Shown here: positions 1-27,729 of the stretch, piece by piece | How positions within the stretch are numbered: position 1 is the first letter of the stretch | How the letters are laid out: every line of letters begins with the position of its first letter | Translations under genes and position numbers: made by a program | DNA from: Treponema sp. | GTDB taxonomy: Bacteria; Spirochaetota; Spirochaetia; Treponematales; Breznakiellaceae | Assembly: GCA_031272575.1 (NCBI GenBank) | Contig: JAISTO010000171.1 | Coordinates: 1 to 32,652, forward strand | Direction of reading: 5' to 3' | Length of the DNA stretch: 32,652 nt | Notes under the pieces: generated by a model | Database searches by the model: none | What the model saw: the letters and a program-made list of their open reading frames with translations, nothing else | Told to the model about the DNA's origin: nothing

Positions 1-1
1 G

Positions 2-265
2 CGGGGGGGATACCCCCCCGCAACGCCCCCCCACCCGGTCCCTGATTGGGGGGCAGCGCAGCACCTGAAAAGTGCCGCGGCGGGCAAAATGTATTTTCCC
101 CCTCTCCCCCCCCCAGCGAAGAAAACCGAGCAGGATCGGTTGAGCACTTTTCAGGTGCAGGGTGGGGGGGGCGGACGGAAAAAACGCTTGCGCGTTTTTT
201 CTTGGAGTTTTTTCGACCGTTTACAGTCGAAAAAACTCCATAAGCACATTGCGAAGCAATGTGCG
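2..265. repeat. Dense cluster of inverted repeats: 2-9/13-20, 25-31/48-54, 61-75/144-158, 125-129/136-140, 178-187/192-201, 203-217/226-240, 245-253/257-265
   Basis: Perfect arms read directly, e.g. GCACCTGAAAAGTGC/GCACTTTTCAGGTGC, TGGAGTTTTTTCGAC/GTCGAAAAAACTCCA, GCACATTGC/GCAATGTGC. Confidence 0.8.
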
Positions 266-286
266 GCGTAATCGCCCCCCCCTCCT

Positions 287-1539
287 CCATGATCCGCATT
301 GCGCTGTCGCGGTAGCGGTTCAGCGCGGCGGTCTCGTAGCGCCATTCCGCGCCCGCGCCTTTTTTGAGCACCGGCGTGCGGAAGACGAAGGCCGTGCGGA
401 GCTTCTCGAGGGGCTCGAGGCGGGACTGACGGGCCTCGAGCGCGCGGAGGGGGTCCGCGCCGCGGACGTAGGGGACGCCCCGGGGGTAGCAGAAGTCCGC
501 GCCGTACAGTTCTATGGCGGCCGCGCCCGCGGCCTGGGCCAGCGCTATCGCGGCGTAGGTGACATTGCCGCCCGAGGTGTCGAGCGCGCTTAGGGGGGGG
601 GAGTACGCGCCGGCCGCGAGGCGGGCAAGGGGGTGGCCGCCCGCGAAGAAGCGGACCGTGGTTTTTTTCGCGAGCGCGGCCAGGGGGGGGGGGGCTTGCG
701 AGATCGATGTACAGGAGGGGGGGGAGGGGTACGCCGATGAAGTGCTGGAGGCTCGCGTGCTGGCAGTCGATAGAGACAGCCGCGTCCGGCACAAGCCCCG
801 CGGCGGCCAGGGACGGGAGGCTCGTGTCGGTTGCGAGGATGAAGAACGCGCCGCGCCGCGCCGTGCGCCGCTTTTTGAGCGCCGCAATGCTTTTTTCGAG
901 CGAGGGCCCCGCCGCGGTGATCGCCACGACCGCGCCCCGGCAGGCGGGGAGGGGAGGGGAGTCCCCCGCTGCCTGGGCCCGGGCCGCGGCCTCTATGTTG
1001 CGGATGATGTTGCCGAACCAGCGGAGCCCGAAGTGCGCCTGCACCGAGTAGTCGGCCCGCACCCGATCGAGCGCGCGGCGGATAGCAGCCTCGGCGCCGG
1101 CGAAGAGGGCCTCGTCCGCCGCGCGGCGCTGCCTTAGGGGGAGCACCCGCAGCGCCCCCGTGAGCGCCGGGAAGCAGCGCCCCGTGATCGTCTCCTCGAT
1201 GGCAGAGGGCGCGGGGTCAGAGAGCAGGTGAAAGCGGGGGTCCGAGAAGAGCGGGCCGTAGTCGATGGCCCCGAAGAGCGCGGCCAGGGCCTTGGCCCCG
1301 TAGTCAATCACCAGGACGGCCGCGGTGCCGGGCCGCTCGAGGAGGGCGCGCGCCTCGAAGCCCCCGCCCAGGCCCTCGAGGACGAAGAAGCCATCGCCCG
1401 GCGGGAGGCTCGCGGCCAGGCGCCGCGCGTCCCGGGCCGGGTCCACCAGCGAATGCAGCGCCCGGGGCGCCCCGCCCTCCGCCGCGAGCAGGGGCACGAG
1501 CGCGCCGCTTCTGGCGCGGGCGAACGTGTAGGGGGACAT
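287..1539 (-). pseudogene. MptE-like / motility-associated factor (DUF115) family protein, frame-disrupted at a 12-G tract (683-694); 3' end unresolved
   Basis: N-terminal part (..GLRWFGNIIRNIEAA..VVAITAAGPSLEKSI..DAAVSIDCQHASLQHFIGVPLPPLLYIDLASPPP) is in one frame; the C-terminal part (LAALAKKTTVRFFAGGHPLARLAAGAYSPPLSALDTSGGNVTYAAIALAQAAGAAAIELYGADFCYPRGVPYV...YRDSAMRIMEE) is in another. Confidence 0.75.
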
Positions 1540-2469: not shown

Positions 2470-5400
2470 TTAATGCGCCGGTTTTTTCCCGGAATCCGCA
2501 AAAGGCTGAGCCCAATCATCAGCCGCATCGCTCACTTCACGATAGTTTACCCCTATGGCGCTGAAATGCCTGCGGGCGCAAAGTATCTTCCGGCGCTCGT
2601 GGGGGTACTGAAGTTTGGACAGGTTCATCGAGCCCTTTGTTTCCCGGACCAGTTCGAGACAGCCCTTGCCGTCCTCCGTGCGGAGCACTATGCCCCAATC
2701 GGGGTTGTAGTTAAAAATGATGGCCGGAATGCGTATTTTGAAACCTGCCGGAAACTTGAAGTAGCAGAGCACGTTCCCGCGGCGATCCTCCTGCTGTAAG
2801 CGGTTTTGGACGAAGCGCTGCTCGACATCCGAATCGATCTGCACTTTATCGTAGAGGCTGTGCGCCGAACCCGGGATAAGTTCCTGCTGCGGGAAATCCT
2901 TTTCCCTGGGGAAGAACTCCTCCATACTGCGGGCGGCCGCGGCCTCATCCATTTCCAGCGGCCTGTAGACGATGTTCTCCGCGATCTGATCCGCGGCCGC
3001 GTCTTTCAGCACACGGATAAACACTTCCGCAAACCCTTCAGGATTTACGAAAATGTTCTGCTTTTGCCCAGGATGGAGATTTTTGAAGACGGCGAGTACC
3101 GTAGAGCGGGTCAGGCCGGTTTCCTTTGCGGCCCGCTCGATCAGGTTCAGCACCGGGGAGGCGGACTGCGTTTCATGGACATTCACTTTGCCGTACGCCG
3201 GCAGGGAACGCCCGCTGAAGTGCCGCAGTTCCCCCTTGCGCACACTGACGTCGTTGCCGAAATGTACAACAGAGCGTTCCCCCTTTTCCTCGATCTGCAC
3301 GATCTTGTAGCCGCGCAGGTTTTTATCTTTCGTCCAACGGTAGAAATCATAACCGACGGGAAAGTACGACATAAACGTTTCGCGCCGGCCGCTCGTATCC
3401 GTCACGGTAATTTGTATTTTTGCGCAGCCGAGTTTTGTTTCAAGCAGAGAGATCGCGTAATTCGAAAGAACGAACGCGCCGGCGGAAACGGTTATGCGGG
3501 GGGACGGAAACACCGCCGCGTTAAGCGCGGCGGCGCATTCTTTTATCAGCGCGTCCGTATCCATGATGATGCTATACTCGGCCGGCCGCGAGAGGCGTTT
3601 CCAAAAGGCAATGAACGCGGGGCTCGTAAAAACAGCGTCCTTACGCCGCGCCCGGCAGCGGCGTGTCTTCGCCGGCGTGGGCGGCGCCGCATCGCCTGAC
3701 TCCGCGTACTCGCTCTGCAGGGCCGACACATACTCTTCATAAGACTCGTTAGCCACCACGGTGAGTATATTGACGCTCTCGTCTTTTATCTGATCGCCCG
3801 CTTCGTTCCGCGCAAGCCGGAGTCCGCGGCCTATTTCCTGCCGCTTGCGGCTGTCCGACCGGGAGCTGTTCAGCGTACAGATGCAGAACACGTTGGGATT
3901 GTCCCAGCCTTCGCGGAGCGCGGAGTGCGCAAACAGAAACGCGGTTTTTTCCGAAAAACTGAGCAGTTTTTCTTTGTCCCGCATAATCAGCCTGAAGGCG
4001 TTCTTTTCCGCTTCCAGTATCTTTTTCCGTTCTTCCGCCGGCATATTCGCGGTTTCAAACGAATCGAGAAATCCGGCGTCACCTTTCTTTTGCGCAAAAT
4101 ATCCCTTATGCACTTCCGCGGCTTCGATGTTTTTGAAGTACGGATCGGCAGCCTTTAATTTGTTGAACGCGTTTTCAAAAAGGATTTTTATGAACGGCTC
4201 GGAAGCGCCGCCCCCGGAAGCGGCACCGGTATAATTCGCCACGCGGTCGATAAAAAAGAGGGACAGTACTTTTATGCCTCTGGCGCGCAGCTCTTTCTGC
4301 CGTTCAAAATGACACCTGATCGTTTCCTCAATCTGCACACGGAAAATTTCTTTTTTGGAAAGAGTAATACTGCGCGAATCGGTCAAAATTGATTGATTGG
4401 TAAAGACGACTGTGTTGGCCGCCTTGTTTATTTCCTCGACGACAAAACCCGCGAATTCGGGATTGCGCGTTTTTACGGAAAGATCATCCCCCTGCCTTAA
4501 GCGCAGCGGCCGCACCGACGCGGTGCCGTTTTCAATAACCGCCGCTTTTACTTTCGCCTGCGGCAGGCCGCGCCCGCTGCTTATGCTTTCCAGTTCGAGC
4601 GAGAGCGGGGCGTCGTGTACATTGTGCTGCTGCGTCACTCCGAACACGCGGATTTTTTTTACGAGATTCTGCCGGAACGCGTCAACAGGAGAAAGCCGGT
4701 ACACGAGATTGTAAGGGTCTGCCGGAGTGGCGCTGTAATTGATCGCGAAGAGGGGGTTCAAGCGCCGCAGCGCCTGACGCGAAATGTCACTCCGGTAATT
4801 CTGACTCTCGTCCAGTATCAAAACAGGCCGCACCGATTGAATGTACTGAATCGGCCGCCGCCCTTCCTGCCCCCTTTCCCCGTCTTTAAAAATGAGATTC
4901 GTGCTTCTGTTGAAACTGTCGATAGTCATCACGAGTATCTCTATGCATTGGGACGAGGCGAAATGACTCAAGCGGTTCAACTGCCGGCTGTCGTATTCAA
5001 TCAGGTTGGCCTGCTCGCCGCGGTACAGTGCACTGAAATGTCCGCGCATCTGACGGAACGCGGCGGCCGTCCCCTCGAAGATCGCCGTGCCCGGGGTAAC
5101 GATGATGAACTTGCGGAAGCCGCAGCGCGCGCGCAATTCGTGGATAGTGCGGAAGTACGTGTAGGTTTTTCCTGCGCCCGTTTCCATGTCAACCGTGAAG
5201 ACCGGGTATCGCAGTTCCTGATCCGGGAGCCCGCGGACGCGCAGCGCGGGCCCCTCGTCGCAGCGGAGTACGGGGTTGATCGGCAGGGGCGGCTGGTTCT
5301 CTGCCGCGCGGATGTTGTTGCGCGTCCTGAGGATACGGCAGTAGTTGCGGTACAGAAGTTCCTCGTCAAGAATTGGAGTCAGTTCCGAATCGAAAAGGCG

Positions 5401-5493
5401 GCCGCATTCCCGAGGGAATCCCCTGAAAAGTTCCACTATGCTTTCGACGGCATCCATCTGGTGAGGCTGTTCAGATTCAAACTTAAACTGCAT
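2470..5493 (-). CDS. res: Type III restriction-modification system endonuclease subunit Res
   Basis: Helicase Walker A (TVDMETGAGKTYTYFRTIHEL), DESQ box (VLILDESQNYRS), SF2 motif (ALREGWDNPNVFCICTLNSSRSDSRKRQEIGRGLRL); adjacent to mod. Confidence 0.93.
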   Translation of the reverse strand: MQFKFESEQPHQMDAVESIVELFRGFPRECGRLFDSELTPILDEELLYRNYCRILRTRNNIRAAENQPPLPINPVLRCDEGPALRVRGLPDQELRYPVFTVDMETGAGKTYTYFRTIHELRARCGFRKFIIVTPGTAIFEGTAAAFRQMRGHFSALYRGEQANLIEYDSRQLNRLSHFASSQCIEILVMTIDSFNRSTNLIFKDGERGQEGRRPIQYIQSVRPVLILDESQNYRSDISRQALRRLNPLFAINYSATPADPYNLVYRLSPVDAFRQNLVKKIRVFGVTQQHNVHDAPLSLELESISSGRGLPQAKVKAAVIENGTASVRPLRLRQGDDLSVKTRNPEFAGFVVEEINKAANTVVFTNQSILTDSRSITLSKKEIFRVQIEETIRCHFERQKELRARGIKVLSLFFIDRVANYTGAASGGGASEPFIKILFENAFNKLKAADPYFKNIEAAEVHKGYFAQKKGDAGFLDSFETANMPAEERKKILEAEKNAFRLIMRDKEKLLSFSEKTAFLFAHSALREGWDNPNVFCICTLNSSRSDSRKRQEIGRGLRLARNEAGDQIKDESVNILTVVANESYEEYVSALQSEYAESGDAAPPTPAKTRRCRARRKDAVFTSPAFIAFWKRLSRPAEYSIIMDTDALIKECAAALNAAVFPSPRITVSAGAFVLSNYAISLLETKLGCAKIQITVTDTSGRRETFMSYFPVGYDFYRWTKDKNLRGYKIVQIEEKGERSVVHFGNDVSVRKGELRHFSGRSLPAYGKVNVHETQSASPVLNLIERAAKETGLTRSTVLAVFKNLHPGQKQNIFVNPEGFAEVFIRVLKDAAADQIAENIVYRPLEMDEAAAARSMEEFFPREKDFPQQELIPGSAHSLYDKVQIDSDVEQRFVQNRLQQEDRRGNVLCYFKFPAGFKIRIPAIIFNYNPDWGIVLRTEDGKGCLELVRETKGSMNLSKLQYPHERRKILCARRHFSAIGVNYREVSDAADDWAQPFADSGKKPAH

Positions 5494-5499
5494 AACCCC

Positions 5500-7407
5500 T
5501 CAGATCGTGCGGACGCGCCCTTTGTCTTCGAGGGTGATTTTGTCCTGATCGCGCAGCGCGCAGTCCCGGCAGATAAATACATCGTTCTCGCCGAGCGAAA
5601 GCGCGGCCGCGGTAGCGGGAACAATGGTATCGTCGAGACAGACAAGAAGCGTGCGGCAGCATGAATCGCTGGTGATCTTCCAGACCGTGTTGCCGGGAAA
5701 CGCCGGCTGCCGCTCTATGCTGCTTTCGAGCGGAAAGCCCTCGAGCAGCAAAAGTTCGAGCAGCACAGGCCCGGTCTGCCAGCCCCGGACGAGCGGATCC
5801 GCGCAGCCTTCGAAGAGCGCTTCCAATTCCTCTATATCGCTGCCGGTGTAGTTTTGCCACTTGCGTATCATGGAACGGCCGGTACGGAAAACGCGGAAGC
5901 CCGTGTCCAGATCGCGCGCGTCCGGGAAATCCGCGCGGATTTTTTCTCCGGCCCTGCGGAGGCGCTCTTTGCCGACATCACAAATAGTTCCATACCCTGC
6001 CTTTGCCGCCTCGCTCTTCGGATGGCAGGGCTCCGGCACCTGCACGAGAATAAAGCGCCGTCTGCCGCCGTCTTCCGCGTTCGCCTGCATAACCGCATGG
6101 CCGGTGGTTCCCGAGCCGGAAAAGAAATCGAGGATGAGGTCGGGTTCTTCATCCTTTTTTGTGTTTGTGGCAATGCGCAAAAAGTGGGTGATAAGACTGA
6201 CCGGTTTCGGATGGTCAAAAAATGTCTTCCCGTTAAAAAGATCGCGGATTTCCCTGGCAGCGCTCTCGTTGAAAAATTCAGAGAGCCAGTTTCGGTAAGG
6301 AATAGTCCGCGTAATGGGGATGTTATTGTTGTCGACAAATTGGTACTGCTTGAAGTAGACGTTCCACTTGTCCCTTTTACGCTTAAACACAATGAAATCG
6401 TGCGCCTTCCCCCACTGCACTTTTTTCCGGCTCCAGCGCCAGCACCAGCCGTTTTGTTCTTTTACGCCCCCCGGGTGTACTTTCGTTCCGTCAGGCGCGG
6501 CAATGGGAAAATCCATCGATGCGGAGTACTGCAGGCTGCCCCTGTCCAACTTGTTCAGTTTGTATTTTCCCCGCCGCCTGAAATGCCGATCCCTGAACGG
6601 GTACGCAGACTCGTTCATCGACTGCATTTGATTCAGGTTGAGCGCGCCGATGTTTTTTGCATACAGCAAAATCGAGTCATGTTCTACGGAAATAAACCTC
6701 GTGTCGAGGCGCGCGGACACGCCGCTCTTCCGTACAAACTCAGCGACAAAGTTCTCCTGTCCAAAAATCTCGTCGCAGAGGTGCCGCAGATTGTGCGCTT
6801 CATTATGGTCTATGCTGATGAAGATAACGCCGTCTTCGCGCAGTACGTTTCTGGCCGCGCGGAGACGCGGGTAGAGCATGGAAAGCCAGTTCGAGTGGAA
6901 GCGCCCCCCGTATTTGGGGTTCGTTGTCAAGGCATTACCCAGCGCGTCAACCTGACTCGTGCGTTTTGCGTAGGACTCCTGCGTTTCCGAGAAATCGTCT
7001 TTGTAAATGAAATCATGCCCGGTATTGTAGGGAGGATCAATGTAGATCATCTTGACGCGCCCGGCATAGGATTTTTGCAGCACCTTCAGAACTTCGAGGT
7101 TATCCCCTTCTATGTACTCGTTGCGGGTGCGCGCTTCGTCCACCCCCTCCCCGGGCACGGGCACGAGCGTACCCGCCGGAGGCAGCGCGGCCATGCGCCT
7201 GGCCTGCCGCTTCCCCGGCCATTCAAGCCCGTAGTGCGCCGGGTCCGAATCGTCATGTGCAAGGTCCTGGTCGAAGCGGTCCGAGAGTGCGTAGTACAGC
7301 GCGGAAAAATCGATCTCGTTGTCCCGAAACGCTTCCGGCGCGATCTGCCGCAGCGCCGCTATCTGCGCTTCGTTGAAGCGGAACGCCGGTATACCTTTTT
7401 CGAACAT
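5500..7407 (-). CDS. mod: Type III restriction-modification system methyltransferase subunit Mod
   Basis: MIYIDPPYNTGHDFIYKDDF (motif IV), DLILDFFSGSGTTGHAVMQ (motif I); 6 bp upstream of res; ATG at 7405-7407. Confidence 0.93.
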   Translation of the reverse strand: MFEKGIPAFRFNEAQIAALRQIAPEAFRDNEIDFSALYYALSDRFDQDLAHDDSDPAHYGLEWPGKRQARRMAALPPAGTLVPVPGEGVDEARTRNEYIEGDNLEVLKVLQKSYAGRVKMIYIDPPYNTGHDFIYKDDFSETQESYAKRTSQVDALGNALTTNPKYGGRFHSNWLSMLYPRLRAARNVLREDGVIFISIDHNEAHNLRHLCDEIFGQENFVAEFVRKSGVSARLDTRFISVEHDSILLYAKNIGALNLNQMQSMNESAYPFRDRHFRRRGKYKLNKLDRGSLQYSASMDFPIAAPDGTKVHPGGVKEQNGWCWRWSRKKVQWGKAHDFIVFKRKRDKWNVYFKQYQFVDNNNIPITRTIPYRNWLSEFFNESAAREIRDLFNGKTFFDHPKPVSLITHFLRIATNTKKDEEPDLILDFFSGSGTTGHAVMQANAEDGGRRRFILVQVPEPCHPKSEAAKAGYGTICDVGKERLRRAGEKIRADFPDARDLDTGFRVFRTGRSMIRKWQNYTGSDIEELEALFEGCADPLVRGWQTGPVLLELLLLEGFPLESSIERQPAFPGNTVWKITSDSCCRTLLVCLDDTIVPATAAALSLGENDVFICRDCALRDQDKITLEDKGRVRTI

Positions 7408-7477
7408 GACAGTAACCCTTATTGCGTATATTAGCATAAAGGGGGCGCGGATGGGAAGCACACGCGGGGGCAGGCGA

Positions 7478-8119
7478 TTACCGCACAAACCCCTCGAAAT
7501 AGGGCGGCAGGGGGGCGCCGGCGTCGAGGCCTTCGGGGAGCAGGGGCAGGGGGGGGAGCACGAGGCGCGCGGCATGGAGCAGGAGGCGCTTAAGGCCGGC
7601 TTCGGAGCGCAGCCTTTTGTTCAGAGCAAAGTCCCCGTATTTGTCGTCCCCGAGGATGGGGCAGCCCGCGGCCGCGAGGTGCCGCCGGATCTGATGCATG
7701 CGCCCGGTTCCCAGTTCCACTTCCACAAGCGAGGTTTCCGGCAGCGCGGCCTGCCCCGCGAGCACACGGTAGCGCGTCTCCGCCTGCCTGCGGACGCCCC
7801 GTTGTTCGAGCGCGCCGCGGATACGGCCCTCCGGCGGAACGGGCGCGCCCCCGCAGACCGCGAGGTAGACCTTGCGCGCGCCGCGCCCGGCAAAGACCTC
7901 GCCAAAGGCAGCGGCAGCGGCCCGCCCCTTCGCGGCAAGCAGCACCCCCGACGTGTCCCGGTCGAGCCGGTGGACGAGCCGCACTTCCCCGCCGTACGCG
8001 GCTTCCAGCAATGCGTCGAGCGAAGTATGAAGCCCCGCCCCCCCCTGCACCGCGAGGCCGGCGGGTTTATTCACTACGAGACAGACGTCGTTTTCAAAAA
8101 GTATGGATATATTTTTCAT
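7478..8119 (-). CDS. RluA-family pseudouridine synthase
   Basis: VNKPAGLAVQGG...VRLVHRLDRDTSGVLLAAKG...GRMHQIRRHLAAAGCPILGDDKYG. Confidence 0.93.
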   Translation of the reverse strand: MKNISILFENDVCLVVNKPAGLAVQGGAGLHTSLDALLEAAYGGEVRLVHRLDRDTSGVLLAAKGRAAAAAFGEVFAGRGARKVYLAVCGGAPVPPEGRIRGALEQRGVRRQAETRYRVLAGQAALPETSLVEVELGTGRMHQIRRHLAAAGCPILGDDKYGDFALNKRLRSEAGLKRLLLHAARLVLPPLPLLPEGLDAGAPLPPYFEGFVR

Positions 8120-24294: not shown

Positions 24295-24853
24295 AAGGGG
24301 GTTCAATCCTCTCGAAAGGATGTCCGCACACCGGAAGGCGCTGCACCGCAGCATGGTGACCTCGCTTTTCCGTTACGAGCGGATACGGACGACAAAGGCA
24401 AAGGCGCTCGCGGTGCGGCGGAGCGCGGAGCGGTTGATCACCCGCGCAAAGGCGGACACCGTGCATAACCGGCGCATCGTGTCGGCACGGCTTTTCGACG
24501 AAGGCATCGTTGCGAAGCTCTTTACCGACATCGGCCCGCGTATGCTTGAGCGGCCGGGCGGCTACACCCGCATTCTCAAATTGGGCGAGCGCGCCGGGGA
24601 CGCGGCTGAAATCGTCATCCTCGAACTGGTGGATTACCAGTTGAAAGAGGAAAGCGCCGAGGATAAAAAGGCCCGCAAGCAGGAAAAAAAGGCCGCGGCG
24701 AAGTCCAAAGACAAGGACGACAAAAAGGCGCGGGCCGGCCGGTCGGGCGGCAAGCGCGCCGACCGGGACGCGGGCGGCAAGAAGGAAAAGGCAGTGGAAA
24801 AAGCCCCTGAAAAAGCGGGCATCTATAGGAGAGGCTATGTCGAAGGCGCATAG
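24284..24853 (+). CDS. rplQ: 50S ribosomal protein L17 with charged C-terminal extension
   Basis: [56 protein letters not shown]; tail [25 protein letters not shown]... Confidence 0.97.
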
Positions 24854-25358
24854 AGGCAAGGGCATAAAGGAATTGCCCGCGCGGGGGAGGGGAGTATGCC
24901 CCCTTTGCAAGCGGACCGGCGTGAAGGCGCTCTACGAGCAGGAACTCGAAGGCCAGAAACTGAAGATCTGCAAGATCTGCAAGGCCACTCTGAAGCACGG
25001 CAAGCGCCGCCCGGAGGAAACGCCCGCGGCGGAACCCGTGGTGAAGGCCGCCGCCGCGAAGCCGGCGCCCGCCGAGCCGGTCGTTGCGCCTCCCATCCCC
25101 GTGGAGCCGGCCGCGGCGCCGGAGACGCCGCCCGCCGCCGAGGCAGCGCCTGAGGCAGCAGCGTCCGTGGCGGCGCCTGTCGCCGAGTCGGCGCCGGCGG
25201 ACGGGGTTGCCCCTGCGGAAGAGGCCGCGCCTGCGGACGGGGCTGCGCCCGCGGACGGGGCCGCGCCTGCGGATGGGGTTGCGCCTGCGGATGAGGCGGC
25301 GCCCGCGGACGGGGCGGCGCCGGCGGACGGGGCGGCGCCTGCGGACGGGGCGGCGTAA
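24837..25358 (+). CDS. Small zinc-ribbon protein with Ala/Pro-rich APADGA tandem-repeat tail
   Basis: [38 protein letters not shown], then AAEPVVKAA..., (APADGA)n; overlaps the 3' end of rplQ by 17 nt. Confidence 0.7.
25189..25355 (+). repeat. 18-bp coding tandem repeats (GCGCCYGCGGACGGGGCG-type)
   Basis: About nine imperfect 6-aa units [18 protein letters not shown]. Confidence 0.8.
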
Positions 25359-25421
25359 GGGGGGGGGCGGCTTGTCAGCTGAACGCCGCCTCTCGGCTGC
25401 TCACTCCATTGTGGGTTGATC

Positions 25422-27675: not shown

Positions 27676-27729
27676 AGGGGCTCCGCGGGGGGGGGGCGTA
27701 CAGCAAATTTCATTTTACCTCTCACAAAT

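Follow-up and report, generated by a model that had tools for sequence, protein, structure and literature searches.

A lineage-private 12-G run splits a Maf-type gene in a Treponema genome rich in poly-G runs and in-frame palindromic repeats

In the assembled genome of an uncultured Treponema sp., a gene that is Maf-type by its domains is broken by a run of 12 G residues (683..694, plus strand; C12 in the mRNA) lying over conserved Ser-Pro-Pro-Leu codons. Our best explanation, held with about even confidence, is that a genuine homopolymer prone to slippage leaves the gene OFF in the assembled population, reversibly so, like a translationally phase-variable gene, and that the run probably arose as a by-product of poly-G growth across the genome, not as an old dedicated switch. 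The window, the whole stretch of 32,652 nucleotides analysed here, is contig C98 of a draft metagenome assembly (2.3 Mb, 226 contigs, 75% complete). The nearest named relatives of the gene are found in Breznakiella homolactica and Treponema metagenome-assembled genomes, which we take to be mostly from termite guts.

The two halves of the gene are read in different frames of the minus strand. The N-terminal half (695..1539, 281 codons) ends ...GVPLPPLLYIDLA, matches positions 26–87 of the PF01973 (DUF115/MptE-like) profile (E 2e-12) and is 41–52% identical to orthologues. At 285..683 the +1 frame encodes the C-terminal portion of PF01973 and the conserved region after it, again with profile matches; this frame, from 683 to 240, starts LAALAKKTTVRFFAGGHPLAR and covers profile positions 138–170. 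A profile of 35 orthologues gives the first half 359 bits and the second 163, with their junction at column 269/270, placing the break exactly at the 12-G run within the coding sequence, where the initial annotation had put it. Codon arithmetic agrees with its further claim that loss of one G (11) or gain of two (14) restores the frame: lengths of 3k+2 (8, 11, 14) join the two frames and 12 does not. Two other G runs lie in frame inside the gene, a G9 at 593..601 (plus strand; SPPL), where the gene has one residue more than its orthologues, and a G8 at 717..724 (plus strand; PLPPLL), whose reading the orthologues confirm. The G8 was considered as the site of the break and rejected, as LYIDLAS reads through it and matches the orthologous L.LDLASPP. 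Beyond the G12 run the upstream frame meets no early stop and remains open to position 151, so translation in the 'off' state would yield a protein carrying an incorrect tail.

The assignment of the gene to the MptE/Maf-like (DUF115) family, made initially from the letters alone, was upheld by domain searches. PF01973 is the sole domain detected in the window gene. The closest named orthologue, the intact B. homolactica gene L063, has the Maf architecture, an N-terminal PF20157 domain (E 3e-7) followed by PF01973 (E 1e-30), and both matches exceed the curated thresholds. This orthologue also shows a weak sequence match to PDB 5mu5 (E 3e-5), a Magnetospirillum Maf structure, and its match to the NCBIfam PseD model falls far under the cut-off (39.8 of 670 bits). 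It is from family membership only that a role in flagellin glycosylation is suggested, because no flagellar gene was recognised beside the window gene or beside two orthologues; likewise, neither the window nor contig C222 showed a recognisable flagellin or sugar-synthesis gene adjoining the Maf-type gene, nor did the neighbours of the two orthologues, which were inspected by eye. A second PF01973 gene, on contig C76, is intact, and loss of the window gene may therefore be tolerated.

We examined the C-terminal end of the gene, where homology to orthologues stops near position 283, at the start of a dispersed repeat. The repeat is a palindromic element of 121 bp (164..284, minus strand) that runs in frame with the gene (EGGAITPHIASQCAYGVFSTVNGRKNSKKKRASVFS); its predicted fold is stable (z-score -11), with the G8 and C8 ends paired around three internal hairpins. 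Near-complete copies are present on contigs C42 and C135 (90–94%) and partial copies on C177, C97 and C168. Positions 1..163 (minus strand) hold a further repeat-rich, poly-G-rich stretch of the insertion, with the frame open to the contig end. The first 58 bases of the window overlap the start of contig C222 at 57 of 58 positions, and C222 3–377, continuing this frame, encodes the C-terminal domain that the window lacks (profile E 2e-8). Across this putative join of C98 and C222 the downstream frame extends for 333 codons, through the inserted repeat into the conserved C-terminal domain, and the insert adds about 131 residues in a linker whose length varies among orthologues. A C-terminal truncation of the gene was rejected because the tail is found on C222. 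No known RNA family was found within the window.

Over more than 600 codons, neither gene half contains a further stop or frame break, so the inactivation would be recent or reversible; the additional inactivating mutations that were to count against a switch are thus absent, the C-terminal insertion being in frame and the tail present on C222. Because the rest of the gene is intact, the G12 run is most likely the product of slippage that turned this copy off and that could revert. A one-way loss, in which a recent slippage knock-out is turning the gene into a pseudogene with the paralogue making this tolerable and the tail insertion helping, seems to us unlikely. The privacy of the split to this genome, the 131-residue repeat insertion in the linker and the intact paralogue on C76 would all fit such decay, whereas the lack of any second lesion, the in-frame insertion and a C-terminal domain that is still recognisable speak against it.

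The history of the run was traced in orthologues. A search of 150 genomes of the family found the gene in 132, 131 of them besides the source, at about 40–52% identity. None of the 131 other genomes carries an internally split copy, shortened copies appearing instead to be cut by contig ends, and all 35 aligned orthologues are single open frames. At the place of the run 33 of the 35 encode S-P-P or G-P-P, mostly within D-L/I-A-S-P-P. The corresponding codons, AGC CCC CCC CTN, form a C8 seed that is extended to 12 in the window; in the orthologues the gene contains no run longer than 9, and near the G12 site none exceeds C8, and at family level the run is thus not conserved in relatives. As the orthologues keep the L-A-S-P-P motif at the run's place, the G12 run appears to have grown from the conserved Ser-Pro-Pro-Leu proline codons, and on these alignments it is private to this lineage and therefore not a conserved switch.

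The same comparison bears on two other readings. The strongest form of the switch proposal, a dedicated phase-variation locus for flagellin modification conserved in the spirochaete family, could draw on Maf family membership and on the abundance of poly-G runs in many family genomes. It is contradicted by the lack of any internally split copy in the 131 other genomes with the gene, by the short runs near the site in aligned orthologues and by the lack of recognised flagellin or sugar-synthesis neighbours; we regard it as very improbable and, at family level, as largely refuted. The initial proposal of a candidate phase-variable switch is partly supported: reversible slippage is plausible, and a conserved locus is not supported. 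Alternatively, ribosome or RNA polymerase slippage at the C12 of the mRNA, with a +1 shift at CCC-C, could yield some full-length enzyme with the DNA unchanged. The shift needed is indeed +1 and falls at CCC proline codons, runs of which are a known weak spot for bacterial +1 frameshifting. Against such recoding, the C12 is unique to this genome and its orthologues are all single-frame, and we consider it improbable.

A wrong G count in the assembly would also split an intact gene. We surveyed G/C runs with a codon-usage frame caller on 1.23 Mb of the genome (53%); the caller is wrong on about 1–2% of long ORFs of the same genome, ORFs that were also used for its training, and it replaced an earlier codon model with 18% wrong calls. 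All 54 other within-gene runs of 9–11 with coding flanks lie in frame in an open ORF; at G/C runs of at least 8, the 1.23 Mb contain no clear within-gene frame break other than the one at the window G12. The 54 in-frame runs argue that run lengths in the assembly are largely right, and they put the error rate for slightly shorter runs below about 5%. Nevertheless we take seriously, though we doubt it, the possibility that the run was assembled with a wrong count of Gs and that its true length keeps the gene open. In favour of such an error, the assembly is a fragmented, incomplete metagenomic draft, no within-gene run with callable flanks is longer than 12, and the aligned orthologues are intact without exception. 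Homopolymer error, named at the outset as the main alternative, is thus less likely than feared in view of the shorter runs, yet possible at the longest one.

Several other apparent frame changes were set aside. Those at a G11 (L127), a G10 (L135) and a G9 (L244) are gene junctions by eye; a G9 in L143, which has an adjacent stop, was judged a junction from the stop position alone; and the apparent breaks at a G8 in L184 and elsewhere proved by eye to be gene junctions or natural gene starts and ends. Two of these runs occupy the place of a ribosome-binding site, the G10 directly before the motB start codon (L135:16564-16573) and the G11 immediately ahead of where a sugar-permease gene starts (L127:4998-5008), and changes in their length could tune translation. 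In the window, a small protein at 24837-25367 has about ten repeats at its end and a G9 run immediately after its stop codon, a G10 (27687-27696) immediately follows a gene identified by eye as thiD-like, and a C11 (32259-32269) lies some 60 bases ahead of the ORF at the contig's right end. Beside the Maf-type gene are genes for a Type III restriction enzyme and an N6/N4 DNA methyltransferase (2470-7494). A phasevarion in these restriction–modification genes was considered and dismissed, there being no G run of 8 or more in their likely coding parts; the G8 at 7549 precedes the likely start of mod.

Long G runs are abundant throughout this genome. The window holds 28 matches to G8 against 3.5 expected (0 of 100 shuffles). 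Of the genome's homopolymers, G/C runs of at least 11 are in excess (39 compared with about 5 under a third-order Markov model) and A/T runs of at least 9 are depleted. Genome-wide there are 391 overlapping G10 positions, and 59 relatives range from 0 to 1089. About 60% of the length-11 runs lie in or near repeats, and most long G runs are found either in repeats or in ordinary genes whose frame is preserved. Because essential genes also carry G runs, the runs by themselves do not mark switches. With 54 of 55 long within-gene runs keeping the frame, long G runs alone are poor evidence for phase variation.

Together, these observations suggest how the split may have arisen. In this lineage only, the conserved Ser-Pro-Pro-Leu codons would have grown to G12, and at length 12 the downstream part of the catalytic domain would be placed in the wrong frame, turning the gene OFF. 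The same slippage could turn it back ON, in a manner like translational phase variation. We regard it as probably a side effect of poly-G growth across the genome and not as a dedicated switch of long standing. What we infer, beyond the observed run and break, is that the state is reversible, that the population contains mixed lengths and that flagella may be affected. Against our best explanation, the break is a single event, no relative shares the run, and length errors are likeliest at 12.

It is established that maf genes of Campylobacter jejuni vary in phase through poly-C/G runs (PMC13130089), as the initial annotation had stated for the genus. The window gene and C. jejuni maf1, maf4 and maf7 belong to the same protein family and have a frame-setting G/C run in the coding sequence. 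Length switching and a phenotype have been shown for the C. jejuni genes, whereas the window gene is known from one assembled length, its run is absent in relatives, and its neighbourhood is not a flagellar glycosylation locus. Treponema pallidum is likewise a spirochaete with long G runs linked to genes (tpr and others); the genes differ, and here the runs are genome-wide and mostly in ordinary in-frame genes or repeats.

The palindromic element in the Maf-type gene has counterparts in other genes of the genome. A survey of 856 kb identified 351 repeat regions, of which 35 have an open frame through the repeat and coding flanks; roughly ten of the 35 are palindromic or G-rich, and the others are mostly ordinary internal protein repeats. 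The same element as in the Maf-type gene lies in frame in folC (L141:3190-3244), where it is absent in seven relatives, corresponds to a gap against PDB sequences and would give the peptide GGAITPHIAAQCASRPPP across the insert; in purL (two repeats of the palindromic or G-rich kind, at L140:1131-1214 and 2107-2173), with the ORF open through the element; and in a SafE-like gene (L142:2193-2236). Related or other dispersed repeats, each opposite a gap in the PDB comparison, are in frame in the genes for MutS (L163:3222-3315), IleRS (L119:3377-3541), MnmG (L162:3343-3430) and ProRS (L159:18839-18867). Probable in-frame repeats occur in genes named by eye from sequence as Mfd (L132:543-690) and GltB (L137:7587-7720). 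FolC, MutS, IleRS, MnmG, ProRS and PurL are conserved proteins, and their genes carry in-frame insertions that counterparts elsewhere lack. In MutS (L163:1484-4291) an insert of some 70 residues, PPPGSGDALS repeats among them, immediately precedes the ATP-binding loop; speculatively, it might affect mismatch repair and hence the stability and growth of runs. The commonest kind of repeat in the sampled genome, dispersed in very many units, consists of a GTACTACCGG...CGGTAGTACGCGC hairpin surrounded by GGGGAGT/GGGAGTA arrays, as at L196:3811-4118, L193:10268-10516 and L157:433-813.

To our knowledge, in-frame palindromic repeats in essential enzymes have been studied mainly in Rickettsia. In the literature searched, with most subscription journals outside its scope, there is no report of such elements in spirochaetes. 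The closest known parallel is the Rickettsia palindromic element (PMC2229807, PMC10969869). Both are small (about 100–150 bp), palindromic, mobile-type repeats with a stop-free frame, and both occur between genes and also in frame inside conserved housekeeping genes. The spirochaete element differs in its phylum, in its G8/C8 ends, in a closed stem with three hairpins, and in being found, of 60 genomes tested, essentially in this one alone. The two are likened by description, and a relation between them is neither claimed nor expected. We think it likely that this lineage has protein-coding palindromic elements independent of those of Rickettsia, poly-G/poly-C-ended multi-hairpin repeats that lie in frame in many conserved and even essential genes (FolC, PurL, MutS, IleRS, ProRS, MnmG and Maf), alongside genome-wide poly-G growth.

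If the G12 run does switch, phase switching of a maf gene would extend beyond Campylobacter to a gut symbiont in which motility and surface are difficult to investigate. The palindromic elements are probably the more interesting finding, and with them this genome lends itself to studying how selfish DNA comes to be tolerated, and recruited, by proteins.
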